DNA of 64,000 bases from Tichowtungia aerotolerans (GTDB lineage Bacteria; Verrucomicrobiota; Kiritimatiellia; Kiritimatiellales; Tichowtungiaceae): contig NZ_CP047593.1 in assembly GCF_009905215.1 (NCBI RefSeq), positions 2,484,900-2,548,899 of the forward strand, written 5' to 3'. The position numbers were made by a program, and so were the translations under genes. Below are positions 2,853 to 52,893 of the stretch, one piece after another. Each line of letters opens with the position of its first letter. Within the stretch, counting starts at the first letter, position 1. The notes under the pieces are model-generated. The model was not told the origin of the DNA and ran no database searches. It saw nothing but the letters and a program-made list of their open reading frames with translations.

Positions 2853-3299
2853 AGCAAACCCGAAAATAATCCAGTTCACAGGATTTTCCTGTAGTAAAGG
2901 GGGGCGGGATCACGCCGTCGCGAAAAGATGTTCGCCACGGATGCACGGGCAACCTTTTTTGCTCATTCAATTTTTTACGAATTAATGACAATTGTCATCA
3001 AGCACCCTAATTCGGGGTATTGTATGTTTTACTCGAGAGTAAAACAATGACAAGTATGCAGCAGGTCTTGTTGAGAAAGATTTAAAGTATGCATTGTTTG
3101 TGTGAGAATCTTATTGTGATTAATAACAATGTTGAAATCAATTTCCCCTGAGGTTGTAGTTGTAATGGGAACAGGTGTGCGAGTTTCTGGGGATGCTGAT
3201 ACGTTGAGGGCAGACTTGAAAGAAGAACCAACGAAAATCAAAAATGTTGAGATGGTGAGTTTCCTCTTATCAGAACAAACAATAACCAATAAAAAGGCT

Positions 3300-3452
3300 T
3301 TCTAACGCCCGGTCCTTTGTATTTCTTCCGCCAGTTGTAAAACATGGCCTCGCTGACTCCCATCGCCGGCACAGTTCGGCAATCTTCTCACCGTTCTCTG
3401 CCTGCTTCAGGGCATATACGACCTGCTCTTCTGTGTATTTCTTCCGCTTCAT
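3300..3452 (-). pseudogene. IS3-family transposase OrfA fragment (frameshifted)
   Basis: The minus-strand frame from ATG 3452 starts MKRKKYTEEQVVYALKQAEN, the typical opening of IS3-family OrfA helix-turn-helix proteins. After CRRW the family match moves to the next frame (MGVSEAMFYNWRKKYKG), showing a one-base frameshift. The match ends at about 3300. OrfA normally has about 85-100 residues and needs OrfB; here only about 50 codons survive. It is a dead remnant. Confidence 0.75.
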
Positions 3453-3528
3453 TGTCCCTCCTTATCATGAGGTTAAACGAAGCCGAATCCTAAAGTATCA
3501 ACTGGTCCAGTTTTCAGGGTGAACGTCA
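3300..3528 (-). mobile_element. Truncated end of an IS3-family insertion sequence
   Basis: Read on the minus strand from 3528, the sequence begins with TGACGTTCACCCTGAAAACT, the look of an IS3-family terminal inverted repeat. It continues through an AAGGAGGG ribosome site into the start of the orfA transposase gene at 3452. Homology is lost near 3300, so most of orfA, all of orfB and the other terminal repeat are missing. It cannot transpose by itself. The outer end lies directly against a protein-like frame starting at 3529. Confidence 0.7.
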
Positions 3529-3708
3529 CACCAAGGCGTCAGGGTTCTCCTGCTTGAATTCTGCGTCACAGAATTTTCGTTTATCAGTGTGCAGGTGGAA
3601 AACCATCAGTTGGATGTGGTCATATTGCGGGAGAAGCTTTGGGAAGTTTTCGCGGAACAGCATGGGGCGGGGGGGAGCCTGAGTCGGCGATACAGATCCC
3701 TGCGCTGA
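3529..3708 (+). pseudogene. 3' remnant of an unidentified gene abutting the IS3 end
   Basis: Immediately outside the IS3 terminal repeat a plus-strand frame runs 59 codons to TGA 3706-3708. It reads like real protein (GVRVLLLEFCVTEFSFISVQ, then LDVVILREKLWEVFAEQHG), but it has no start codon or ribosome site. The simplest reading is that an insertion destroyed a gene and left its C-terminus. I do not recognise the family. A metallophosphoesterase-like C-terminus is one possibility, without strong support. Confidence 0.4.
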
Positions 3709-3769
3709 TTAAAGCGGTTGTGCAAATGATTTTTCTCATCAGTATGTTTTTTTGTTGTTCATTTTTGAT

Positions 3770-3788
3770 AATGTGCATAAAATTGCAA
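3770..3788 (+). promoter_or_regulatory. Putative operator, copy 1 of shared motif AATGTGCATAAAWTTGCAA
   Basis: The sequence AATGTGCATAAAATTGCAA lies in an AT-rich strip ahead of operon 1. The reverse complement of 29773-29791, just ahead of operon 2, matches it at 18 of 19 positions. It contains TGCA-N6-TGCA. Its start is 356 bases before the first operon gene (4126) and 174 before the short ORF at 3944. A protein-binding site shared by the two operons is the natural reading. The binding protein is unknown; the LacI product at 1681 and the AraC product at 710 are candidates. Confidence 0.5.
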
Positions 3789-3943
3789 TATAGTATTTTT
3801 AAAAACAACCAATTAATTGTCGTTTTTATTGGTTTTTTTTATTTGAGTGCAAAAAAGTTGACATATTTTTATTTTGATGTGATCTTTTTTTAAGCGTTGG
3901 TCCGGATTCGGATTTTAGAGTCCATTGAGCGAAAGGATGCGGG

Positions 3944-4054
3944 ATGAAAAAGTGGTTCGTAATCACGACGATTTTGAATGCTGCGGCAAGTTCAGAGTCT
4001 GAAACACTGTATCCCTGCAATCAATCAGCTTGGGTTTGCGACCCTCCGTATTGA
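3944..4054 (+). CDS. Short ORF with signal-peptide-like start, probably a gene remnant
   Basis: A GAAAGGATGCGGG ribosome site precedes ATG 3944. The 36-residue product begins MKKWFVITTILNAAASSESE, a plausible secretion signal, and then stops at 4054 after a Cys- and Pro-rich tail. The next 70 bases up to the Tat-protein gene also end in a protein-like frame (YEAGMAQPLEIVE, stop at 4127-4129). The segment could therefore be both ends of a collapsed secreted-protein gene that once headed the operon. It could also be a short leader ORF. Confidence 0.35.
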   Translation: MKKWFVITTILNAAASSESETLYPCNQSAWVCDPPY

Positions 4055-4125
4055 AGGGAGTTAATACGTGTTGGGCCAGCTTGAGAGTATGAGGCCGGTA
4101 TGGCACAGCCGTTGGAGATCGTTGA

Positions 4126-5010
4126 ATGAAACGAAGAGAGTTTATTGCTAAAAACTTGGGAGCAGGTCTGGCGGTCAGTACAGGAGCCATCTGCGGTGGC
4201 CTGCCGGCATCTTCTGCCGATTTGAACTATGATTCTCAAAAGAAATGGCCTCTGGATGCTCAGGGGGCTGTGCCGCCGGACGAGGTCCGTTTGCTGGCAG
4301 GATATATTGGGACCTATCATGCTCCTGAAGGCGCCATGCCGAGGTCGGGTGGATGGAAGGCCGTCTATGACATGCTCAAATTTGATGCTCCCCCCTCTTA
4401 TAAGAAAAAGAAGGTTGCGGCTCCTGTCATGTATAATTCGTCTTTAGGTCAGGTTGCGATTTCCCGATCCGGTCGGGATCCTGAATATCACATTCAAATG
4501 GCATATTCTCCGACTGCGGCTGTTGAGGAAGTAGATGGTCAGCTTTACTGCAATACGGATGATGTTGCTTCCATTTGTAATTATGAAATGACATGGCGCT
4601 GCTCGTCACGAGATCCGCATATTACTTATTTGCGCAAAGAGATCGGTCGCGTCGGGTCTGGAGAACTGACGGTTTCGACTCCGGCGTATACGGATCGGTT
4701 CCGGATTCAGAAATCTCTTACATCGCTGTGGACCCTTATGGATGCCGTTCGTTTTCTGCCGGCTCAGGCTGGATGGAAAAAGAATTTTGACCTGTATATG
4801 GATTTATCCTCTCTGCGCCGGAATCAGGTTTTGCAATACAGCAAAGAGAGCGTGATTCAGACTGCCGGAGGAAACGTTCCTGTCAGCTTTTATCGTCAGC
4901 TAGGAGAAGGGATTGAGCCGATACACTATGCGGTCGATGAACAGAAGAGACCGTTGTTTATTACTCAGGGGCAGTTGGGCTGGGGCTTAAACAGAATTGA
5001 GATCATCTAA
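4126..5010 (+). CDS. Tat-signal protein coupled to a signal-less sulfatase (copy A)
   Basis: A 294-residue protein of a family I cannot name. It starts MKRREFIAKNLGAGLAVS, a twin-arginine (Tat) export signal, followed by a hydrophobic stretch. It should therefore leave the cytoplasm folded. It contains no metal or hydrolase motif I recognise. It aligns along most of its length with the 269-residue protein at 44670: a central EMTW...DP stretch against EWTF...SPD, and the C-terminal LGEGIEPIHYA against YGPGGIPVNYV. Its stop codon overlaps the ATG of the sulfatase at 5010 by one base, and the 44670 copy overlaps its own sulfatase by four. The repeated coupling suggests a functional partnership, such as export, folding or substrate presentation. 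That role is inference. Confidence 0.75.
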   Translation: MKRREFIAKNLGAGLAVSTGAICGGLPASSADLNYDSQKKWPLDAQGAVPPDEVRLLAGYIGTYHAPEGAMPRSGGWKAVYDMLKFDAPPSYKKKKVAAPVMYNSSLGQVAISRSGRDPEYHIQMAYSPTAAVEEVDGQLYCNTDDVASICNYEMTWRCSSRDPHITYLRKEIGRVGSGELTVSTPAYTDRFRIQKSLTSLWTLMDAVRFLPAQAGWKKNFDLYMDLSSLRRNQVLQYSKESVIQTAGGNVPVSFYRQLGEGIEPIHYAVDEQKRPLFITQGQLGWGLNRIEII

Positions 5011-6248
5011 TGAGTTCAAAATCACCCAATATTATCTTTGTGCACGTGGATCAGCTGCGCTGGAGTGCAGTCGGAGCCAATGGCAGTGCAGATGGACGGA
5101 CTCCGAATATGGATCGGATTCTGAATGAAGGTGTTCGGTTCGATCGTTCTTATACCGCATGTCCGGTTTGTGTGCCGGCGCGCACCGCCTGGTACACCGG
5201 CCTCGAACCGGAACAGAGCGGTATTTCAGAAAATCCCCGCTGGATTGACCGGAAGCAGGTTGATGTAACTGAGCTGGGAACGTGGCTGAGTGAAAAAGCC
5301 GGCTACGACTGTTTTTATGCCGGCAAGTGGCACATTGCCCTGAAACCGCAGACCACCGGCTTCACTTTCCTGCACGACAGTAATCCGGTCGGTGAATATG
5401 GTGACACGCCACTGGCTCGCGCTGCGGAAGATTTTCTGCTGCACCATCAGAGCGATAAGCCGTTTTTTCTGAGCGTTGGTCTGCTCAATCCTCACGATAT
5501 CTGCTATTGGAGTTTTCAATATACGCCGGCAAAATTTGCTATTGCAAAAGATATTGAAAACCTGCTGCCGCAGCTTCCTCCCAATCTGGTTCGAAACGAC
5601 AAAAAAAGCGAGTGGAGTGATCTGCAATGGCGGTTCTATGCCTACAGCTATTTTCGGTTTGTCGAAATGGTCGATGATGAAATCGGCCGAATCTACCGGG
5701 CATATCGGCGTTCACCTGACGTTGAAAACACCGTGTTTATTTTTTCATCTGACCACGGGCAGGGCAACGGCGAGCACGGTGTCGCGACCAAAAATTCGCC
5801 GTATGAGCACAGCTGTAAAGTTCCGCTTGCAGTTATTGATTCGCAGTCCACCCCCCGGAGGGATCGGGATCATATGATTTCAGGATTGGACATGGCTCCA
5901 ACCATTTGTGATTACGCCGGTGTTGAACCGATGCCGCGCAATCATGGAAGAAGTTTCAGGCCGCTGGTTCGAAACGAACAGGTTTCGTGGCGCGACCGAA
6001 TGGTGCTGCCGACTCCTTTGCTCAGGCACAGCGTTGTCCTGAAAGGAGATTATAAGCTGATTTACACCCGTAAAGGCGGTGCTGTGCAGTTGTTTCACCT
6101 GAAAAATGATCCGTGGGAAATGCATGATTTGTCTGCCGATCCGGCTCACCGGGAAGTACTGGATGAGCTGTCGTCTCTGCGCGAAACATATGATGAACAA
6201 CGCGAATACTGTCCGATGGCCCGGAGAGATCTGGAACGATGGATGTAA
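5010..6248 (+). CDS. Type I sulfatase without signal peptide (copy A of Tat-coupled pair)
   Basis: Family S1 formylglycine-dependent sulfatase, 412 residues. It hydrolyses sulfate esters, probably on a glycan fragment; the substrate is unknown. Cys54 in CVPAR is the residue to be converted to formylglycine. Asp14 in VDQ and the SSDHGQGNGEHG segment supply metal ligands, and AGKWHIA carries the conserved Lys and His of the active site. The DHG form places it nearer choline- or iduronate-type sulfatases than the DNGG arylsulfatases. The protein starts MSSKSPNIIFVHVD, with the catalytic domain beginning at once and no secretion signal, unlike most other sulfatases here. It is either cytoplasmic, acting on imported sugars, or carried out by its Tat-signal neighbour at 4126. 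The closest relative in the window is the product at 45476. Confidence 0.93.
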   Translation: MSSKSPNIIFVHVDQLRWSAVGANGSADGRTPNMDRILNEGVRFDRSYTACPVCVPARTAWYTGLEPEQSGISENPRWIDRKQVDVTELGTWLSEKAGYDCFYAGKWHIALKPQTTGFTFLHDSNPVGEYGDTPLARAAEDFLLHHQSDKPFFLSVGLLNPHDICYWSFQYTPAKFAIAKDIENLLPQLPPNLVRNDKKSEWSDLQWRFYAYSYFRFVEMVDDEIGRIYRAYRRSPDVENTVFIFSSDHGQGNGEHGVATKNSPYEHSCKVPLAVIDSQSTPRRDRDHMISGLDMAPTICDYAGVEPMPRNHGRSFRPLVRNEQVSWRDRMVLPTPLLRHSVVLKGDYKLIYTRKGGAVQLFHLKNDPWEMHDLSADPAHREVLDELSSLRETYDEQREYCPMARRDLERWM

Positions 6249-6269: not shown

Positions 6270-7916
6270 ATGAAACGACTGTTTTTTTATTCAGCAGCAG
6301 CGCTGGCTCTGTCGGTTTCGGCAGAGCCGCCGAATGTTTTGGTTGTGATGATGGACGATTTCGGGGGCGGGCAGTTTGCGCCGCTGGCGGACCGGCTGAA
6401 TGAGCAGTCCTTTGATCCGGCATTTGTCAGTTTCGTTGCCAGCATGAAGAATGGCGGGCAGTATTCCAATACGGAAGCTCTAGCCGCCGCCCGCAAAGCG
6501 ATGCCGACGATGAGCCGGCTGGCTGCGGACGGACTTCTGTTCACCCGGGCTTTTTCCGCCGCCGCTCTTTGTGCTCCGTCACGTTGCGGTCTTGCCACGG
6601 CAATGCATCCCAACCGGTTCGGGATTTATGAAAACAGTGATGTGAATGCGTGGCCGGGAGCGTTGCCGCCTGAAAAAATTCTGATGCCGTACTTCAAGGC
6701 CGCCGGCTATGTAACCGGCCACATCGGCAAATGGCATCTCGGTCCGCTTAATGAGGAAATGGCACGGCCGATTTTTGAGAAATATGGACTTTCTTCGGAC
6801 ACAAATCCTCATTCTTTGAAAAAGAACAGTCCGGCATATAAAGAGCTGGAGGCCGTCGGTTATTTTGGCTCCGTACCCGATGCGCTGAATCCGCTCAATA
6901 ACGGTTTTGATTTTTACTACGGCTATAATTATCACCAGTCGAAGTTCTACGGAGATTCCAATGTTTGGAACGGATTTGAGCATGCCGGAAAACAGGAAGG
7001 ATATAATACAGAGACGTTTACAGAAAAGGCACTCTCTTTCATCAATTCCGCCGCAAAGGAAAAACAGCCGTTCTTTCTGAATCTGCATGTTCATGCGGTG
7101 CACGGCCCGCTGTTTCCGAATCCGCCGGAAAAATACATGAAACCGTTTGAGGGCATGCCGAACCTGCTGAAGAATTTTTACGGTCATGTTTTTGCTGTCG
7201 ATGAAGCCATTCGGAGTGTCATAGAAACGCTGGAAAAAAACGGGCAGCTGCAAAACACACTGATTGTATTTACCGGGGACAACGGGGGATCCGTTCAGCG
7301 CGAGAGTCCGCTGCCGGGCAATGCGCCGCATCGCGGTCATAAAGGCAATTATATTCAGGGCGGGATCCGTGTTCCGCTGGTGATTTCATGGCCGGCACAG
7401 ATACACAAGGGACACGTAACTTCCGAACTTGTGTCACTGCTGGATATTCTGCCGACCGCCATGGATGCCGCAGGCATATCGATTCCTGACGGGCTGGACG
7501 GGCGGTCGCTGCTGCCGTTTATTGAGCATTCCGGGAGCGGGCCGCATGATCAACTGGTCTGGTTCGGTCTTGAATCGCGCAGCTGGGGATTTTTGAGGGA
7601 AACCGCATTTGATTTTCAGAAAATGCGGTCGAAAGAACCTGGATCGTGGACCGTTGTAACCGACGAATGGCTGCTTCGGTTTACGGGAGAAATCGTTCCC
7701 GGTCTTTACAGGGATTATCCCGATGGAAATTCCGCCCGGATGGAACTCTATTCCGTTAAAGACGATCCCGGCGAAACACATAATCTGGCAGGACAGTATC
7801 CCGAGACCGTTGCAACGCTTAAAGCGATTGCCGCGAAACGGGCGAAGACTCTTCCGCCGCCGTCTCATTGGAATCGCCTCAAATGGCAGGAATTACAGGA
7901 CAGTCTGGAGAAATAA
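6270..7916 (+). CDS. Secreted type I sulfatase (548 aa)
   Basis: S1-family sulfatase with a Sec signal peptide (MKRLFFYSAAALALSVSA, likely cleaved before EPPN). The formylglycine site is Cys101 in CAPSR. Metal-binding Asp29 and Asp30 lie in MMDDFGGG. Active-site Lys and His are in GKWHLGP, and the second metal site is TGDNGG followed by HRGHKGNY. It has an insert of about 40 residues between the DD motif and the Cys motif, longer than in the neighbouring sulfatases, so the substrate pocket probably differs. A GGAAGAA ribosome site precedes ATG 6270, 21 bases after the previous stop. Expected in the periplasm or at the surface. Sulfated sugar not deducible. Confidence 0.94.
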   Translation: MKRLFFYSAAALALSVSAEPPNVLVVMMDDFGGGQFAPLADRLNEQSFDPAFVSFVASMKNGGQYSNTEALAAARKAMPTMSRLAADGLLFTRAFSAAALCAPSRCGLATAMHPNRFGIYENSDVNAWPGALPPEKILMPYFKAAGYVTGHIGKWHLGPLNEEMARPIFEKYGLSSDTNPHSLKKNSPAYKELEAVGYFGSVPDALNPLNNGFDFYYGYNYHQSKFYGDSNVWNGFEHAGKQEGYNTETFTEKALSFINSAAKEKQPFFLNLHVHAVHGPLFPNPPEKYMKPFEGMPNLLKNFYGHVFAVDEAIRSVIETLEKNGQLQNTLIVFTGDNGGSVQRESPLPGNAPHRGHKGNYIQGGIRVPLVISWPAQIHKGHVTSELVSLLDILPTAMDAAGISIPDGLDGRSLLPFIEHSGSGPHDQLVWFGLESRSWGFLRETAFDFQKMRSKEPGSWTVVTDEWLLRFTGEIVPGLYRDYPDGNSARMELYSVKDDPGETHNLAGQYPETVATLKAIAAKRAKTLPPPSHWNRLKWQELQDSLEK

Positions 7917-7917
7917 A

Positions 7918-9450
7918 ATGAAACGCAGAAATTTTATGGGATTAACCGGTGCATCTCTTGCGCTGAGCGCATTCGGTGCGTCAGCCGTTTCCAAGGTTCG
8001 GAAACCGTATAATATTCTGATTATCCACACGGATGAGCACAACTTCCGCACGCTGGGCTGTTATCGCCGGACACTGCCGGAAAAGGAAGCGCTGATATGG
8101 GGGACGCCGGTTGTTGAAACACCGTACATCGATTCGATTGCCGACCGCGGACTGGTTGCCGATTCTTATTATTGCGCCAGTCCCATCTGCGGACCGTCGC
8201 GCGCATCCTTTGTTTCCGGCCTCTATCCCATGGATACCGGGGTCATCGAAAATGACGTTCGTATTCATCAGGACATCGAAACCTTTGCCACTGCGCTGCA
8301 GCGGGCCGGCTATTCGACCGGATACATTGGGAAATGGCATCTGGACGGACTTCAGGACGAAATCATAAAGCATATGGAGGAAAAAACCGGCAAGCCTGCC
8401 CGCAACATGTATGCCGCACCGGAATATTATACTGGCTGGGTGCCGCCGGAACGGGGCCTGGGGTTTGAAGACAACCGCTATATGTTTGATTGCTGGCACG
8501 GAAAAAAAGTTGTTTCGGATCCGGACGGAAGAAATCCGGAAATGTTTTATCCGACCGAAATCGGGGATGAAAAAACATTTATGACCGACTGGCTTTCGGA
8601 TCGGACTGTTGAATTTATTGAGCAGCATAAAAACGAACCGTTCTGCTGCATGGTCAGTATTCCTGATCCGCACGGGCCCGATCTGGTGCGTGAGCCTTAC
8701 CACAGTATGTATAAAAATGCACCGTTCGAAGTGCCGTACACCGGAAAGAAAGACCCGAAAACTGCGCCGGCCTGGGCGCGGGTTACCGGCAGTAAGCCCG
8801 GGGACAAAGACGATATCTATTTCGGCATGGTCAAGTGTATTGACGATAATGTCGGCAAGATGCTGAAAAAGATTGATGATCTGGGACTTACTGACCGAAC
8901 GATTGTTCTGTTTACCTCCGATCACGGGGATATGCGCGGTGAACACGGCCGGCAGAACAAGGGAATTCCTTATGAAGCGTCGGCGCGCATTCCGTTTGTG
9001 ATTGCCGCACCCGGCCTGATTCCTGCCGGTATTCGTACCGATGTTGCGCTGAATACAATCGACTTCAAACCGACTCTGCTGAGCCTGCTTGGCGTTTCTG
9101 CCGAGAAACCGTCGGAGGGTCGCGACGCCTCCGCTGTTTTGCGCGGAGAGCCGGTTTCCAAGGATTGGAAAAATCTGATTTTTTCCCGGAGCCCCGCCGT
9201 TCGGCAGGGAACCGCATGGCTGATGGTGACCGACGGACGCTATAAACTGATTGCCAGTCCTGTCGAACCGATCTGGCTGATTGACCTGAAGAAAGATCCG
9301 GCCGAGCTGGTAAACCGTGCCGTCGATCCGGAGCTGGCTCCGGTCCGCATTCGCATGGCCAAAGCGCTTTTGAATTATGCAGAGACATATAACGATCCGA
9401 ATCTGCCTTTAGGGAAAATGCGCGCTTCACTGGAAGAGGCAGGGCTGTGA
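7918..9450 (+). CDS. Tat-exported type I sulfatase (510 aa)
   Basis: The frame is open further upstream inside the previous gene, but the biological start is ATG 7918, one base after the preceding stop. It gives the Tat signal MKRRNFMGLTGASLALSAF. Cys91 in CGPSR is the formylglycine site. The N-terminal metal motif is the TDEHN variant rather than DD. GKWHLDG gives active-site Lys and His, and TSDHGDMRGEHG is the second metal motif. It belongs to the DHG-type group (iduronate-2- or choline-sulfatase-like) with a ~20-residue insert before the TPYIDSIA helix. It should be periplasmic and exported already folded. Translational coupling to 6270 is likely. Confidence 0.94.
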   Translation: MKRRNFMGLTGASLALSAFGASAVSKVRKPYNILIIHTDEHNFRTLGCYRRTLPEKEALIWGTPVVETPYIDSIADRGLVADSYYCASPICGPSRASFVSGLYPMDTGVIENDVRIHQDIETFATALQRAGYSTGYIGKWHLDGLQDEIIKHMEEKTGKPARNMYAAPEYYTGWVPPERGLGFEDNRYMFDCWHGKKVVSDPDGRNPEMFYPTEIGDEKTFMTDWLSDRTVEFIEQHKNEPFCCMVSIPDPHGPDLVREPYHSMYKNAPFEVPYTGKKDPKTAPAWARVTGSKPGDKDDIYFGMVKCIDDNVGKMLKKIDDLGLTDRTIVLFTSDHGDMRGEHGRQNKGIPYEASARIPFVIAAPGLIPAGIRTDVALNTIDFKPTLLSLLGVSAEKPSEGRDASAVLRGEPVSKDWKNLIFSRSPAVRQGTAWLMVTDGRYKLIASPVEPIWLIDLKKDPAELVNRAVDPELAPVRIRMAKALLNYAETYNDPNLPLGKMRASLEEAGL

Positions 9451-43043: not shown

Positions 43044-43212
43044 CGAGACTGAGGAAGACGCCATGCAACCGTATGCGGCATTCGTTGATTACAACAGTCC
43101 TGTCGATGACGGTCTTGTTGTGGGAAACCGGTTCTATATTTATTATCCCCGGATGCAGATGAAAGACCAGAACAAGGCGCCCATGTACCGACGGCTGATC
43201 ACAATTGAATAA
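43036..43212 (+). pseudogene. Out-of-frame 3' end of the propeller glycosidase
   Basis: From GTG 43036 the +1 frame continues the previous protein (VIDETEEDAMQPYAAFVDYN, then VVGNRFYIYYPRMQM) to TAA 43210-43212. The text is that expected of the last propeller blade, without its own ribosome site or start. It is therefore the tail of the 42108 gene separated by a one-base change at about 43030-43041, not an independent gene. Confidence 0.75.
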
Positions 43213-43231
43213 AAAAGAAAGAGAAAGTCGA

Positions 43232-44656
43232 ATGAAAGGCAGAAAAGTATCACTGATACGAATGTTTGGATATGCATTGGGAGAGGGGGCCACCTCGATC
43301 ACCATGAACGGTATCTCCAACTTTGCGATGCTTTTTTATACCCAGGTGCTGGGACTGAGCGCGGCCTACGCCGGAATCGCATTGAGCATCACGACGCTGT
43401 GGGATGCGGTGACTGATCCGGTGATGGGGCACATCACGGACAATACGCGCAGTCGGTTCGGGCGGCGCCTGCCGTATGTCTTCTGGGGCGGCCTCGCGCT
43501 GGCGACCTCTTTCTTCCTGCTGTGGATACTGCCGGGGAAATTCACCGAAGCATCCGCGATTTTCTGGTGCATTCTGCTGATCAACCTCGTTGTTCGAACT
43601 GCTGTGACCGTGTTTGTGGTTCCTTATACCGCACTGGGGTTTGAAATGTGCCCGGACTATGTAGACCGTTCCCGGCTTCAGGGGGTGCGTTTCTTTCTCA
43701 ATCAGATGGTCAATCTGGTTTTCGGCGCCGGGGCATGGTCCATGTTCTTCAGGGATCGGATTGCTGAAGACGGCAGTCGGATTGATGGAACGCAGATTCA
43801 GGGCAACTATCTGGTCATGGGGGGCGTGCTGGCGGTTGTTTCGTTCATCGCTATCATCAGCTGTGTCCTGGCGACCCGGCGCTATGCGGCCAACAGCCGG
43901 TCCATGTCGATGGAAGGCAACACCCTGAAGGCTTTTTTCAGGGACATGGCCGGGATTTTTACGGATCGGCTGGCCTGGTATGTGTTCGGATTTTTCGGAG
44001 TCGCCCAGCTGGCCATGCTGCTGGTCTCCCAGATCCAGATGTTCACCTATGTGCACTATATGCAGTTTGCGGATAATGAAAAAACCTGTGTGCACGGCAC
44101 GGGGATGGTCGCCTTTGCACTGGGTTCCATTTGCCTGTCCAGGCTGGTGGCCCGCTTTGACAAAAAGGCGGCCGGGTATATCGGCATGATCATCAGTCTG
44201 TCGGGCGGACTGGCGCTTTTTGCAGTATTCTCAACCGGCCTGCTTGCTCCGCAGACCCTGTGGGGCGACGTTCCGATCGCAACGGTTCTTTTTGCTCTTT
44301 TCCAGGGAATGTGGTGGGGCGGCTGCGGGATTCTGGTGCCGCTGGCGCTTTCCATGATCGCGGATATTTCCGCGATTAACCGGCATCGCACCGGCGCGGC
44401 GAAAGACGGCAGTTATTCCGCGGTATTCAGTTTCTTCCTGAAGGCGGCAACGTCGTTCGGCCTGCTGATTACCGGTTGGCTGGTCACCTGGGCCGGGATC
44501 GTCTCCGGCGCGGAGCATCAGACGGTCGAGGCCGCCCGCAATGTTTCTGTGATGACCTTCCTGAGCGGTCCGGCGCTGGTCGTTCTCTCGTTCTTTATCC
44601 TGAGGAAATATCCGGTGGATCGGGCGTACATGGAAAAACTGCATTCGGAAGAATAG
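43232..44656 (+). CDS. GPH-family sugar:cation symporter (MFS, MelB-like), copy 2
   Basis: 474 residues from ATG 43232; a TTG at 43205 is in frame but overlaps the previous tail, and the 43232 start aligns with copy 1. Inner-membrane protein with about 12 hydrophobic segments. DAVTDPVMGHITDNTRSRFG is the family signature, PYTALGFEMCPDYVDRSRLQ the second block. Closely related to 16919 (shared SITMNG.SNFAM, WWGGCG.LVPLA.SMIAD, TFEARN-like ends). Expected to import the monosaccharide or short glycan released by operon 2 enzymes. The following gene pair (44670, 45476) includes a sulfatase without signal peptide, which could process an imported sulfated sugar. Confidence 0.93.
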   Translation: MKGRKVSLIRMFGYALGEGATSITMNGISNFAMLFYTQVLGLSAAYAGIALSITTLWDAVTDPVMGHITDNTRSRFGRRLPYVFWGGLALATSFFLLWILPGKFTEASAIFWCILLINLVVRTAVTVFVVPYTALGFEMCPDYVDRSRLQGVRFFLNQMVNLVFGAGAWSMFFRDRIAEDGSRIDGTQIQGNYLVMGGVLAVVSFIAIISCVLATRRYAANSRSMSMEGNTLKAFFRDMAGIFTDRLAWYVFGFFGVAQLAMLLVSQIQMFTYVHYMQFADNEKTCVHGTGMVAFALGSICLSRLVARFDKKAAGYIGMIISLSGGLALFAVFSTGLLAPQTLWGDVPIATVLFALFQGMWWGGCGILVPLALSMIADISAINRHRTGAAKDGSYSAVFSFFLKAATSFGLLITGWLVTWAGIVSGAEHQTVEAARNVSVMTFLSGPALVVLSFFILRKYPVDRAYMEKLHSEE

Positions 44657-44669
44657 AAAGGAGAAAACA

Positions 44670-45479
44670 ATGATGGCAACCCGTCGCAGATTTATGGAAG
44701 GAACGCTTCACGCGGCCATGCTTTCGGTTCTGGGCAACCGTGTGTTCGGTGCGCAGGCGGCATCCGGTTCATACGCTCTAAATCCGGCGTTTGAATATTT
44801 AAAAAAGTGGGTCGCTCCGACGGCTCCTTATACGCCGGACGGGCCGATGGTCCTGAAGTACGATATAATCAACTGGATGGGCGAAGGCGGGCCGCATAAC
44901 ACGGTGATCGGAAAGCTGATCCTTTCCCGCCTGCGCCGGGAACAGGGCCGCGTTGCCTTCCGTGTCGACTGTGCCTGCGGTCAGGATCACTGGGTATCCG
45001 AAGTCACCTGCCTTGACGACGTCTGGAACACGCCGGAAGAGTGGACGTTTACGTCAAAGCCGCTCAGCCCGGACACAAACTGCCGGAATCTGGTGGAGAA
45101 CCGGTTTAAAGGCATTCGAAAGAAAACAGAACTGGAACTGACATGGGCTGGCGGTCGCAAAAAAAGCATTCCGTTTTCCGGCCCGATCCTGTTTCCGTTT
45201 GCTCTGCTGGCATCGCCGGAAAAATGGGCCCGGTCTTCTGCCGCTGACCAGCCGATGAATGCATTGCGGGAACTGCATTACCTGATGCCGGACCAGCGGT
45301 TCATCGCCGACGGAACGGTTGTCTTGACAGATGGCTCCTCACTGGGTTCCTTTCTTCAGTACGGTCCGGGAGGAATCCCCGTAAATTATGTCTCCGGTCC
45401 GACCGGCCTGCCTCTGGCCATGACCGGATTTCTGATTTCATATCTTTTGACCGATGCTGAGATCGGAGGTGCCGCATGA
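44670..45479 (+). CDS. Tat-signal protein coupled to a signal-less sulfatase (copy B)
   Basis: 269 residues; ATG 44670 (ATG 44673 next) behind GAAAGGAG. The N-terminus MMATRRRFMEGTLHAAMLSV is Tat-like. Family not recognised. It aligns with 4126 in the middle and C-terminal parts: SEVTCLDDVWNTPEEWTFTS, SPDTNCRNL, LTDGSSLGSFLQYGPGGIPV. Cys residues (CACGQDHW) might bind metal, but this run is not kept in copy A. Its last four bases overlap ATG 45476 of a sulfatase whose nearest relative is the one paired with copy A. The pairing is therefore conserved between operons. Confidence 0.75.
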   Translation: MMATRRRFMEGTLHAAMLSVLGNRVFGAQAASGSYALNPAFEYLKKWVAPTAPYTPDGPMVLKYDIINWMGEGGPHNTVIGKLILSRLRREQGRVAFRVDCACGQDHWVSEVTCLDDVWNTPEEWTFTSKPLSPDTNCRNLVENRFKGIRKKTELELTWAGGRKKSIPFSGPILFPFALLASPEKWARSSAADQPMNALRELHYLMPDQRFIADGTVVLTDGSSLGSFLQYGPGGIPVNYVSGPTGLPLAMTGFLISYLLTDAEIGGAA

Positions 45480-46717
45480 AAAAATGGAATATTATTTTCT
45501 GTCACGTGGATCAGCTGACGCAGACAGGAGTCTCTGCATACGGCGGTGAAAACGCCCGGACTCCCGGGATGGACCGCCTGGCGGCGGACGGGATTCTGTT
45601 CGAAGACAGTTTCTCCTCCAATCCGATCTGCTGTCCGGCCCGCAGCTGCTGGTATACCGGGCGCATGAGTTCGGAGCACGGAACGCTGGTTAATAATCAG
45701 TCGATTGAAGATTTCCCGGATCTTGGACAGTGGATGTCTGCGCGGGGATATCAATGCTTTTATGCCGGTAAATGGCATATCGCCCGCAATGTGGCCAAAA
45801 GTTTTAAACTGCTGCATCCCCAGTTTGCCCTGGGCGAACAGCACGACAGCGCCGTGACGCGGACCGCGGAGGCATTTCTTGAAAACTATTCCGATGAAGA
45901 GCCGTTTTTCCTGAACCTCGGGATGCTGAATCCCCATGACTGCTGTTATCTGAATTTGGCGAAGGATCATTTGGCCACAAAATTCGGAGTGGAACGTCAT
46001 TTCCCTGAAGAAATTCCTCCGCGGATGAGATCATACGATCCGTCTAAACCGACAGGAAGCAAAGACTGGCCGGCCGACTGGGTCGATCTGTATCGCTACT
46101 ATTATTTCCGGATGACCGAAATGGTCGATGCGGAAATCGGTCGGATTTACGATGCACTGCAAAATTCCCGCTTTGCGGAAAATACAGTATTCATCTTTTC
46201 CGCCGATCACGGTGAAATGATGAGCGCTCATAACCTCTTCAAAAAGAGCCGCCCGTATGACGAGGCGCTGAAAGTTCCGCTGATCGTCGTGCAGCCCGGC
46301 CTGCCGGGCGGCCGACGCGATGCCAGCCATCTGATTTCCAGTGTGGATGTACCCGCCACGATTCTGGATTACGCCGGAATAGAATGCATGCCGGATATGA
46401 GTGTCGCGAAAAGTTTCCGTCCGGCAATCGAAGGAAAAGATGTTGCGTGGCGGGAGTATGTCCCGTGTGAAATCTTTCAGGGAGGCCCCCAGATCGTCCT
46501 GACGGATAAACGGTATAAATATTACCGGCACTTTAAAACCGGCGAGATGATGCTGTTTGATCGGATCGCCGATCCGGATGAACTCAGCAACCTGGCAGAT
46601 CAGCCGGATCTCGCCGGCGTGCTGCAACGGTTTGAAACAAGGCAGCAGGAATATTTTGAAACAATCATTCCATCCGCCCGTTACCGGGAAGAAATGAAAA
46701 AAGCCCGGAAGGCATAA
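45476..46717 (+). CDS. Type I sulfatase without signal peptide (copy B of Tat-coupled pair)
   Basis: 413 residues. Starts MKKWNIIFCHVDQLTQTGV, so no export signal. Formylglycine Cys52 in CCPAR (a second Cys follows), Asp12 of VDQ, AGKWHIAR and SADHGEMMSAHN. Shares with 5010 the CFYAGKWHIA block, PFFLNLGMLNPHDCCYL (SVGLLNPHDICYW in 5010), the EMVDAEIGRIYDA helix and length, so the two form one subfamily. ATGA overlap with the Tat-signal gene. Either a cytoplasmic enzyme next to the sugar symporter, or a passenger of the Tat-signal partner. Confidence 0.93.
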   Translation: MKKWNIIFCHVDQLTQTGVSAYGGENARTPGMDRLAADGILFEDSFSSNPICCPARSCWYTGRMSSEHGTLVNNQSIEDFPDLGQWMSARGYQCFYAGKWHIARNVAKSFKLLHPQFALGEQHDSAVTRTAEAFLENYSDEEPFFLNLGMLNPHDCCYLNLAKDHLATKFGVERHFPEEIPPRMRSYDPSKPTGSKDWPADWVDLYRYYYFRMTEMVDAEIGRIYDALQNSRFAENTVFIFSADHGEMMSAHNLFKKSRPYDEALKVPLIVVQPGLPGGRRDASHLISSVDVPATILDYAGIECMPDMSVAKSFRPAIEGKDVAWREYVPCEIFQGGPQIVLTDKRYKYYRHFKTGEMMLFDRIADPDELSNLADQPDLAGVLQRFETRQQEYFETIIPSARYREEMKKARKA

Positions 46718-46727
46718 AGGTGAGAGC

Positions 46728-48749
46728 ATGAAAAAAACGATCGACCGGCGCCGGTTTCTGTGTCGCAGCGGACTGATGGGAGCCGGAGTGCTTGCCGGCT
46801 GCAGAAACATAGGAAACGGATTATCCGGTTCAGACGGGACTCGGTTGAAAAAGTATGCTGCGCAGTTCGCGTGGCAGGGGCACCCGGAAGCTTATATTCG
46901 TCATACTCTTGGGCTGGGAAAAGGCAGCTGTTCCATTCGCTGTTCAGATGAAGTATTGCAGCCGGATCAGCGTGTGGAGTGGGTTGAGATTACGTATGTT
47001 TCTCCCGACGAAGGAATTGCTGCCGGCGGCAGTGTGACGCTGTCGGTGCCGCCAGGTCCGGCGGATGCTGCGGTGCAGATTGATGATTCGGCGAAGCCTG
47101 CATTTATGGAGGTTCGCGCGGATGCTGCTTTTTCTGTGGAGCTGAAATATCCTCCGTTCGAAGTTCAGGAAAACTGTTTGGTTCGCAAGTCCCGTGTCGA
47201 GGTTTGTTTTCCGGAAGGGCTCGCGCCCCGGATGCCGGTTTCTTTTCTCTGGCATGATGTCAAATTGGATACGCATGCCCGGCGCTGGGATGGGGACAGT
47301 TGGCGTTTTCAGCTTCTTGCAGATCATAACGGCGATGGGCAGAGCGAAGAGTTGCCGCAGACGGCAGAGGTTCCCAAGCAATCCGGTCCCGCTGATTATC
47401 TTCTTGTTCGGTGTGCATCCATGGCGCTGCCTGGTGAGCCGGTACGTGTGAACGTGGCGGCATTCGACCGGTTTAATAATCCGGCGCAATGTTATCGGGG
47501 GAAGATCAGTTTCCGGTTGGAGAGCGGTGCTGAAGGAAACTTGCCTGCCTCATATCGTTTTGTGGAGGAAGACAGGGGGGCTCATCTCTTTTCTGTATCC
47601 TTTGATGTGCCTGGTTTTTACTGGCTTCTTGTTGAAGATGAAGAGGGTCGATCCTGCCGTTCGAACCCAATCGAGATTGTGGCGGAAGAGCCGGCTCGTC
47701 GTCTTTTTTGGGGAGATTTGCATGTGCACACCGAGAAGTCAGCCGATGCCAGAGTGTGGGCGCATACGACATCGACGTATGCCGGATCGTATAACATCGG
47801 TCGTTATCGCTATGGACTCGACTTTCAGGCGAATACGGATCATCACGGCTTGCTTCAGGGTAATTATACCCGGGACGAATGGGAGGAAATGCAGCGCGTT
47901 ACGAACCGGGCGGATGACCCCGGACAGTTTGTTGCCATCATCGCCAATGAATATTCCCATGCTCAGGGCGATGCCAATGCTTATTTCAAGGAAAGCCGCG
48001 TGCCGTATTTTGATCACGAGCCCTATGAATCGAGCAGCTATCCGGAAGGCCTTTTCAACCAGCTGCATCCATATCGCTGCCCGCTGATCCCGCTGATCCC
48101 GCATCATGTTGCGCAGAATATGCGCCCGTTCAACTGGGGCAACTATGATTCCGCCCTGATGAGCGTTTGCGAAATATTTTCCAATCATGGACGGACGGAA
48201 TATCTCCATAATAAGCCCCATTATTCGCATAAGAAGATTCCGACAATGGAAGGGGAGACCTGGGTGGAGCAGCTCCAGGCAGGAAAAATGATGGGGTGCG
48301 TGGCCGCCGGCGACGACCACTGGGCCCGTCCGGGGACTTGCGGATTGACGGGGGTCTGGGCGCCTTCTTTTGACCGCGCTGGAATCTGTGATGCGGTTTA
48401 TACCCGGCACTGTATTGCCACGACCGGTGACCGCAGCATTCTGCACGTCAAAACAAACGGGGTTGAGTCCGGACAGACGGTTCCGGCCTCTGACAAGGTA
48501 ACCGTTGAAGTTCGGGCTGCTGCCGGGTCTCCGATTGAAAAGGTTGAAATTATCAGGGACGGCGCGACTGTTCATTCGGAAGTTTTGGATTCCATGACTG
48601 CTGAGCTGAGTTGGACAGACTCTTCTCCCGGCAGCTGGTACTATGTTCGCCTGACCATTCAAGCGCAGAGTATCTGCGAAGAGTACATGCGTGGTAAAAC
48701 CCAGTTTGTCTGGAGCTCGCCGGTATGGGTGAGCCCGTCTCCGGCGTAA
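46728..48749 (+). CDS. Tat-signal lipoprotein with DUF3604/PHP-like metallohydrolase domain
   Basis: 673 residues, last gene of operon 2. DRRRFLCRSGLMGAGVLAGC combines a twin-arginine motif with a lipobox, so export by Tat and lipid anchoring are expected. The first ~320 residues are beta-rich. From residue 328 comes a PHP-type metal site: FWGDLHVHTEKS, then DFQANTDHHG, IIANEYSHAQGDANAYF and GDDHWARPGTC, with His/Asp/Glu ligands in the order known for DUF3604 proteins. The final ~90 residues are a beta domain (EKVEIIRDGATVHSEVLDS). PHP-superfamily proteins are hydrolases, often phosphoesterases; the substrate of DUF3604 members is not established to my knowledge. It lies next to a Tat-coupled sulfatase. 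Confidence 0.82.
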   Translation: MKKTIDRRRFLCRSGLMGAGVLAGCRNIGNGLSGSDGTRLKKYAAQFAWQGHPEAYIRHTLGLGKGSCSIRCSDEVLQPDQRVEWVEITYVSPDEGIAAGGSVTLSVPPGPADAAVQIDDSAKPAFMEVRADAAFSVELKYPPFEVQENCLVRKSRVEVCFPEGLAPRMPVSFLWHDVKLDTHARRWDGDSWRFQLLADHNGDGQSEELPQTAEVPKQSGPADYLLVRCASMALPGEPVRVNVAAFDRFNNPAQCYRGKISFRLESGAEGNLPASYRFVEEDRGAHLFSVSFDVPGFYWLLVEDEEGRSCRSNPIEIVAEEPARRLFWGDLHVHTEKSADARVWAHTTSTYAGSYNIGRYRYGLDFQANTDHHGLLQGNYTRDEWEEMQRVTNRADDPGQFVAIIANEYSHAQGDANAYFKESRVPYFDHEPYESSSYPEGLFNQLHPYRCPLIPLIPHHVAQNMRPFNWGNYDSALMSVCEIFSNHGRTEYLHNKPHYSHKKIPTMEGETWVEQLQAGKMMGCVAAGDDHWARPGTCGLTGVWAPSFDRAGICDAVYTRHCIATTGDRSILHVKTNGVESGQTVPASDKVTVEVRAAAGSPIEKVEIIRDGATVHSEVLDSMTAELSWTDSSPGSWYYVRLTIQAQSICEEYMRGKTQFVWSSPVWVSPSPA

Positions 48750-51604: not shown

Positions 51605-52893
51605 GGCTCTTCCTCAACGACGGGGGCAAGGGCGATCTCTGACTGCTAAGGTAGCAGTTGGATAAAAAAAGGGATCGCTATGCCCAAAGAGAAGATAGAC
51701 CTCGTCGGCCCCGGCATCAAGGTTCATTCCGTAGTCCGCCACGGTGGCGTGATGATTCATGCCGAGTACGTTGGCCCGGTGGCCTGTCCGCAATGCAGTT
51801 CAGAGCAGCTGCGCACTAAGGATCGATTTGTACGGAAGCTGCGTCATGAAAGCATTGGAACGAAAAACACCTGGCTGTACTTGACGCTGCGTAAATATCG
51901 CTGCGAAGACTGCAGACGCTATTTTAGGGCCCGAGTGCCCGGCCTGCTGCCGTACCGGCGCAGTACCGAGATGTTCCGTCAGGAGATCTTTATGGGTCAC
52001 CGTGACGGCATCAGCCAGCAACAGCTGCACCGCACCCGGCGGATCGGATCCGCTACTGTCGAGCGGTGGTTTCATGAACATCTGGAGCTTAAAGAGAAGA
52101 TGTTTTCCAGCCGGTTGTGCCCGACGGTTCTGGGTATTGATGAACACTTCTTCACCAAGAAGCAGGGATACGCAACGACCTTCTGTGACCTGCAGAAGCA
52201 TCGGATATTCGAGGTAGCCAAGGGACGATCGGAGCACTCCCTGCATAGCGCTCTGATGCGAATGAAAGGCCGAGAGCGCGTTCAGGTGGTCTGTATCGAC
52301 CTTTCATCAAGCTATCGCAGCTTGGCTCGGAAGTATTTCCCGAATGCATTGATCGTCAGCGATCGGTTCCATGTGGTGCGAACCGTCATCCGCCATTTCC
52401 TCGACACATGGAAGCTACTTGACCCTGTAGGGCGTAAAAACCGTGGGCTGCTATCGCTGATGCGCCGAAAAAGCGGCAATCTGCATCCAGACCAACAGGC
52501 CCGTCTGGAGCGATATTTTGAGCAGAACCCAGCGATTGGTATGGTGTACAAGGCCAAAGAGGAGCTATGCGAACTGCTTAACCAGAAGCATCGAACACAA
52601 AAGGATTGCCGGCCGCTAATCTCACGCCTGCTGTACTGGATCGATCAGCTGCGCAACAGTCCATTCGAGCCGTTGCGCACGCTGGGGGCCACATTGAGTT
52701 CCTGGCGCGATGAGATCGCCCGGATGTGGAGGTTCACCCGCAACAACGGCATTACAGAAGGCTTCCATACCAAGATGGAGCTGATTCAGAGAAGAGCCTA
52801 TGGCTTCAGGAATTTCGACAATTACAGATTGAGAGTAATTGTGATGTGTGGTTAATAAAAATTCGCCCTTGCCCCCGTCTTTGGGGAAGAGCC
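51605..52893 (+). mobile_element. ISL3-family insertion sequence, apparently complete
   Basis: 1289 bases bounded by 31-bp inverted repeats: left 51605-51635 begins GGCTCTTCCTCAACGACGGG, and right 52863-52893 read on the minus strand begins GGCTCTTCCCCAAAGACGGG. They differ at two positions. The repeats enclose one full ISL3 transposase gene. The 8 bases outside each end do not match (GTAGGTAA and AGAGCCGA), so the usual target duplication is not seen, hinting at rearrangement after insertion. Confidence 0.88.
51680..52855 (+). CDS. ISL3-family transposase
   Basis: 391 residues with all expected parts. An N-terminal zinc-finger region (CPQCSSEQL and CEDCRRYFRARVPG), a helix-turn-helix near GISQQQLHRTRRIGSATVERW, then the DDE catalytic domain: first Asp in LGIDEHFF, second in VVCIDLSSSYRSLA, and the C-terminal acidic residue in NNGITEGFHTKMELIQRRAY. 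Length is near the family norm (about 400). It cuts and pastes the element by recognising the 31-bp ends. It appears intact. Unrelated to the sugar genes. Confidence 0.95.
   Translation: MPKEKIDLVGPGIKVHSVVRHGGVMIHAEYVGPVACPQCSSEQLRTKDRFVRKLRHESIGTKNTWLYLTLRKYRCEDCRRYFRARVPGLLPYRRSTEMFRQEIFMGHRDGISQQQLHRTRRIGSATVERWFHEHLELKEKMFSSRLCPTVLGIDEHFFTKKQGYATTFCDLQKHRIFEVAKGRSEHSLHSALMRMKGRERVQVVCIDLSSSYRSLARKYFPNALIVSDRFHVVRTVIRHFLDTWKLLDPVGRKNRGLLSLMRRKSGNLHPDQQARLERYFEQNPAIGMVYKAKEELCELLNQKHRTQKDCRPLISRLLYWIDQLRNSPFEPLRTLGATLSSWRDEIARMWRFTRNNGITEGFHTKMELIQRRAYGFRNFDNYRLRVIVMCG

Follow-up and report, generated by a model that had tools for sequence, protein, structure and literature searches.

Overlapping gene pairs in the window

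The window (the whole stretch of 64,000 nucleotides analysed here, taken from a complete contig of 3.88 Mb) encodes two sulfatases without an export signal, each overlapping the end of a gene for a Tat-signal protein. The question raised by this arrangement is whether such a sulfatase (S) stays in the cytoplasm or is exported together with the partner protein (P) encoded before it. Both pairs had been recognised in the initial annotation and were confirmed at 4126–6248 and 44670–46717, with an overlap of 1 base between the P1 stop and the S1 start and of 4 bases between P2 and S2. The features of the two loci are as follows.

4126–5010, + strand: P1, partner protein of 294 aa; open reading frame with a beta-spiral core and a Tat signal in which RR occupies residues 3–4
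4126–4224, + strand: Tat signal peptide of P1 (MKRREFIAKNLGAGLAVSTGAICGG), recognised by the objective Tat rule; its extent is approximate as to cleavage
5010–6248, + strand: S1, S1-type sulfatase of 412 aa without a signal (PF00884, E 3e-43)
5169–5183, + strand: formylglycine motif of S1, C-V-P-A-R, read from the sequence
6270–7916, + strand: sulfatase with a Sec signal after pair 1, read from the sequence
43205–44656, + strand: GPH/MFS_2 symporter immediately before pair 2 (PF13347, E 2e-68)
44670–45479, + strand: P2, partner protein of 269 aa; open reading frame of the same family as P1 by profile
45476–46717, + strand: S2, sulfatase of 413 aa without a signal (PF00884, E 2e-38)
45629–45643, + strand: formylglycine motif of S2, C-C-P-A-R, read from the sequence
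46728–48749, + strand: DUF3604 protein immediately after pair 2 (PF12228)

S1 and S2 had been described as beginning at the catalytic domain, and this was correct. In each gene the reading frame extended no more than 8 codons beyond the PN motif in the upstream direction; the absence of a signal is therefore not an artefact of start calling. All nine other sulfatases found in the window by profile search carried a Sec or Tat signal at their start, also as described. The proposed homology of both members between the operons held as well: S1 and S2 were 39% identical, and the kinship of P1 and P2, invisible to BLASTP (E 0.07), was clear with the family profile. The N-terminus of P2 was Tat-type (MATRRRFMEG, MMATRRRFMEGTLHAAMLSVLGNRVFGA), with the RRRFM motif read by eye.

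The paired sulfatases

S1 and S2 scored 148.6 and 132.9 bits, respectively, against PF00884 (curated cut-off 25 bits). In an alignment of 16 paired sulfatases (A3), the residues C54, P56, R58, D14, K106, H108, D248, H249 and K261 were invariant. The paired sulfatases share the fold, the CxPxR motif and the metal- and sulfate-binding residues with the S1-type formylglycine sulfatases (PF00884), of which 3b5q and 5g2t are the nearest solved structures by sequence. They differ from these in that a second gene product nearly always accompanies them; we know of no need for a second gene product among S1-type formylglycine sulfatases in general. The Poribacteria pairs L085–L087, L099 and L133 had CAAAR in place of CxPxR, and neither partner carried a signal.

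The partner protein

For P1 and P2, no Pfam family was found even at an E-value of 10, and no sequence match in NCBIfam or the PDB. The AF2 model of P1 (pLDDT 85, pTM 0.81, core approximately 97) predicted a beta-spiral resembling DUF1849/EipB (Foldseek E 5e-8). Among the folds listed by VIA, EipB of Brucella (DUF1849; 6ntr; PMC10787603) aligned over 199 residues with an rmsd of 4.4 (Z 13.2). Identity was 8%, however, the DUF1849 model matched none of the 25 P members scanned, and EipB has no described sulfatase partner. LolA, LolB and RseB were more distant likenesses; together with VioE, they share an unclosed or spiral beta-barrel with P (Z approximately 8–10) but no sequence similarity, and their partners are different.

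Three weak remote matches to P were solo genes. The two that were read (L284 and L285) encoded Sec-type proteins close to DUF3108 with no sulfatase nearby, and L284 matched DUF3108 (PF11306) with an E-value of 2e-4, below the curated cut-off. The scanned P proteins themselves had no match to DUF3108. L284 and L285 possibly represent the ancestral stock of P.

Distribution of the pairs and location of the signal

P was searched for in 346 genomes of the class and in 80 loci defined by their sulfatases, from named species in many phyla, as well as in the genomes that carry 16 of these loci and in relatives within Bacteroidota, Armatimonadota and one Planctomycetota class. A search for related loci with P1 alone gave no matches, and paired sulfatases as the query succeeded. 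Loci with P and S were present in Kiritimatiellota, other Verrucomicrobiota, Armatimonadota, Planctomycetota, Acidobacteriota, Latescibacterota, Binatota, Poribacteria, Bacteroidota and Pseudomonadota, with approximately 90 pairs outside the window genome.

The window genome itself encoded three further pairs. In two of them (L010 and L011), P had no signal and S carried a Tat signal (MSLNRRDFLKTG, MSRRSFLGTG); in the third (L009), the gene order was reversed and P had a KR-type signal. All five pairs of this genome thus had one signal each. The pair that immediately precedes the window (contig positions 2476436–2478759) had the signal on the opposite partner relative to the window pairs. A P-signal pair and an S-signal pair lay side by side in L072 (Armatimonadota).

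Both N-termini were readable in 94 pairs. The signal was on S only in 53 pairs, on P only in 26, on neither partner in 12 and on both in 2, and one pair was fused; exactly one partner was signal-bearing in 79 of the 94. Two Tat signals never occurred in one of these pairs. The two pairs with both signals were close relatives (L260 and L262), in which P had a Sec and S a Tat signal. With kinship ignored, the exclusion was highly significant (Fisher p 9e-12). In 18 of the 26 P-signal pairs, the frame of the signal-less S was open for no more than 16 codons ahead of the catalytic motif. The expectation derived from the window, that P homologues always precede a signal-less sulfatase, did not hold, since in most pairs P lacked the signal and S had it, and in many P-signal pairs P came second. 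This reciprocity, with the single Tat signal on S in other pairs, is the decisive new element in the support, strong but indirect, for the piggyback export proposed in the initial annotation.

Signal states were assigned by the motif and the hydrophobic stretch, partly by eye. Strict hydrophobicity rules missed real Tat signals of P2, L035, L036 and L094 and of six S proteins, which were judged by eye. Atypical P signals had KR (L009 and L094) or RH (L035). The state of L012 is uncertain because the start of its S coincides with an N-gap. Eight of the 12 pairs without a signal fell into one starred clade (five Poribacteria, one Latescibacteria, one Rhodobacteraceae and one Kiritimatiellia). 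The P signals of the S-then-P pairs L266, L072, L077, L074 and L066 ended in a common tail like G-x-LPLL, which suggests a single origin of the P signal within the S-then-P clade.

Solitary genes and fusions

Had either gene often occurred alone, this would have spoken against a joint function according to the initial annotation. Apart from P matches at contig ends (L032, L063, L193 and L253), there was one clear P orphan with enough flanking DNA (L254) and one partner-less sulfatase within the clade of paired S, which had its own Tat signal (L082). A natural P–S fusion of approximately 719 codons with a single N-terminal Tat signal was encoded in L245 (G435:C31, minus strand, 3068–5224).

P was extended by an additional N-terminal domain of approximately 200 aa without a Pfam match in L260 (806–2179), L262 (2927–4390, minus strand) and L247. 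A Sec signal was present where the start was visible (L260 and L262); L247 was cut by the contig end. A second candidate fusion, a 630-aa open reading frame in L034 (3782–5674, minus strand) with a signal-less P part, was rejected. Its sulfatase part lacked the first approximately 94 profile positions including the formylglycine Cys, so the frame looks decayed, and it looks like a deletion fusion beside an intact pair. The P match in L120 (E 1e-3), which lies within a longer open reading frame, appears to be fortuitous.

Phylogeny and co-evolution

The paired sulfatases, including the partner-less L082, formed one starred clade (SH-aLRT 100). Neighbouring solo sulfatases, e.g., L091 and L110, had their own Tat signals, so S was probably the earlier location of the signal. 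Two starred clades (99 and 100) contained the P-signal pairs; the second lay within a starred group of pairs with the signal on S. As read from these sequence trees, the signal has moved to P at least twice, or three times if the fusion in L245 is counted.

The P tree agreed with the S tree, L094 included. Pairwise distances of P and S were correlated (0.91); on 21 divergent pairs the correlation was 0.51, and none of 5000 permutations was as high. Within the window genome, the two P proteins of the window were too divergent for distances to assign each to its own S. A sign test had only 4–5 independent contrasts, so significance was out of reach. With so few independent events, the statistical weight lies in the persistence of the pattern across deep divergence and not in the number of events.

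Predicted arrangement of the pair

The chain that was folded consisted of the natural same-frame neighbours of L147, S followed by P, with one stop codon read through. The alignment used (A6) contained the natural read-throughs L147 and L077 and no engineered join; A5 and A8, in which half of the P-only rows were out of place, were set aside. The model reached a pTM of 0.74, which for this fused chain with a thin alignment was the sole interface measure; approximately 0.49–0.62 would be expected if the position of P relative to S were undefined. The model thus suggests a defined arrangement of the two proteins, where a missing predicted interface had been named as evidence against joint export. 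The S part was a standard S1-type sulfatase (Z approximately 33), and a low-confidence linker of approximately 40 residues connected it to P.

Proposed mechanism and alternatives

We consider it likely that P and S constitute an obligate two-subunit sulfatase that would be assembled in the cytoplasm and then exported in the folded state via Tat on the signal-bearing subunit. The rarity of either gene without the other, the natural fusion, the agreeing trees, the read-through model and the reciprocal placement of the signal all support this reading, from which we infer a stable P–S complex. P and S would be co-produced from the overlapping genes; their folding and association would take place in the cytoplasm, as would formylglycine formation. 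The folded complex would leave through the Tat translocase (a tatC gene is present in the genome), and a single Tat signal per complex would be enough, on P in the window pairs and on S in most others. Outside, P probably acts together with S; judging from its fold and its predicted occurrence in both compartments, it may be a structural or substrate-binding subunit. In the sub-clade without a signal on either partner, the complex is probably cytoplasmic, with an imported sugar as the substrate. For the phyla as a whole, we lean towards a group of two-subunit sulfatases whose active form includes a LolA-like subunit; the single Tat signal would have moved between the subunits several times, and one branch would be cytoplasmic.

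The view that signal-less S is cytoplasmic and desulfates sugars imported by the GPH symporter, with P exported for another job, was raised together with the pairs. It agrees with the GPH symporters in both window operons, and with the counting of signal-less sulfatases in sulfatase-rich bacteria (Pontiella) as cytoplasmic (PMC6388578). Sulfatases with neither a signal nor P were encoded in L010 (10393–11811) and L030 (488–1969), so cytoplasmic sulfatases probably exist too in these genomes. In L117 neither partner has a signal, and the location of this pair beside a LacI regulator gene and an ABC sugar importer is consistent with a cytoplasmic complex. However, the same symporters also accompany L010 and L011, where S bears the Tat signal, and both the fusion and the reciprocity (S without a signal where P has one, and the reverse) are left unexplained. 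A cytoplasmic S thus probably applies to the one sub-clade without signals, and is quite improbable as a general account of the pairs.

If P instead served S as a dedicated chaperone or as an escort during export, bound transiently and absent from the finished enzyme, the obligate pairing and the co-evolution would appear just the same. Many Tat substrates have proofreading chaperones (PMC4273604), and a LolA-like fold is typical of carrier and chaperone proteins. Known Tat chaperones remain in the cytoplasm, however, whereas P itself bears the signal in 26 pairs and is predicted to be exported, has its own Sec signal in L260 and L262, and is fused to S in L245; we regard this role as rather unlikely. 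It is very unlikely that P and S merely share a compartment without association and that the signal distribution reflects chance of descent. Such a reading could draw on the two or three independent relocations and on the non-significant sign test. Yet a protein without a signal needs a carrier to reach the outside, the frames upstream of signal-less S are closed, and the fusion and the pTM argue for contact.

Relation to known Tat complexes

Precedents for the proposed hitchhiker export are HybOC and PaoABC of E. coli (PMC4273604), which are likewise encoded by adjacent genes and in which the signal-less catalytic subunit is thought to exit folded with a Tat-signal partner. These are cofactor-loaded redox enzymes, whereas P–S combines a formylglycine sulfatase with a LolA-like partner, and the signal is found on either subunit in different P–S lineages. 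In the open-licence PMC literature, no description was found of a Tat-hitchhiker or heterodimeric sulfatase with a subunit-switching signal. As far as checked, the elements are of known kinds, and the combination and the moving signal are new.

If the proposed export is correct, a carbohydrate enzyme without redox cofactors would join the few Tat hitchhiker complexes, nearly all of which are redox enzymes. The pairs would then be a natural experiment indicating that Tat requires one signal per assembled complex irrespective of the subunit that bears it, a rule that the signal switch makes testable across natural homologues. Some sulfatases now counted as cytoplasmic for want of a signal may be exported, and a paired sulfatase expressed alone may lack half of the enzyme.

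Genomic surroundings

The neighbourhoods of the pairs were sulfated-polysaccharide clusters containing a LacI regulator, SASA esterases, a rhamnosidase, beta-helix proteins, GPH symporters and DUF3604. An ISL3-family transposase was encoded at 51680–52855 of the window, between polysaccharide gene clusters. For the window gene at 7723–9450, the listed start was too far upstream; the likely start (MKRRNFMGLTG) lies approximately 65 codons in.
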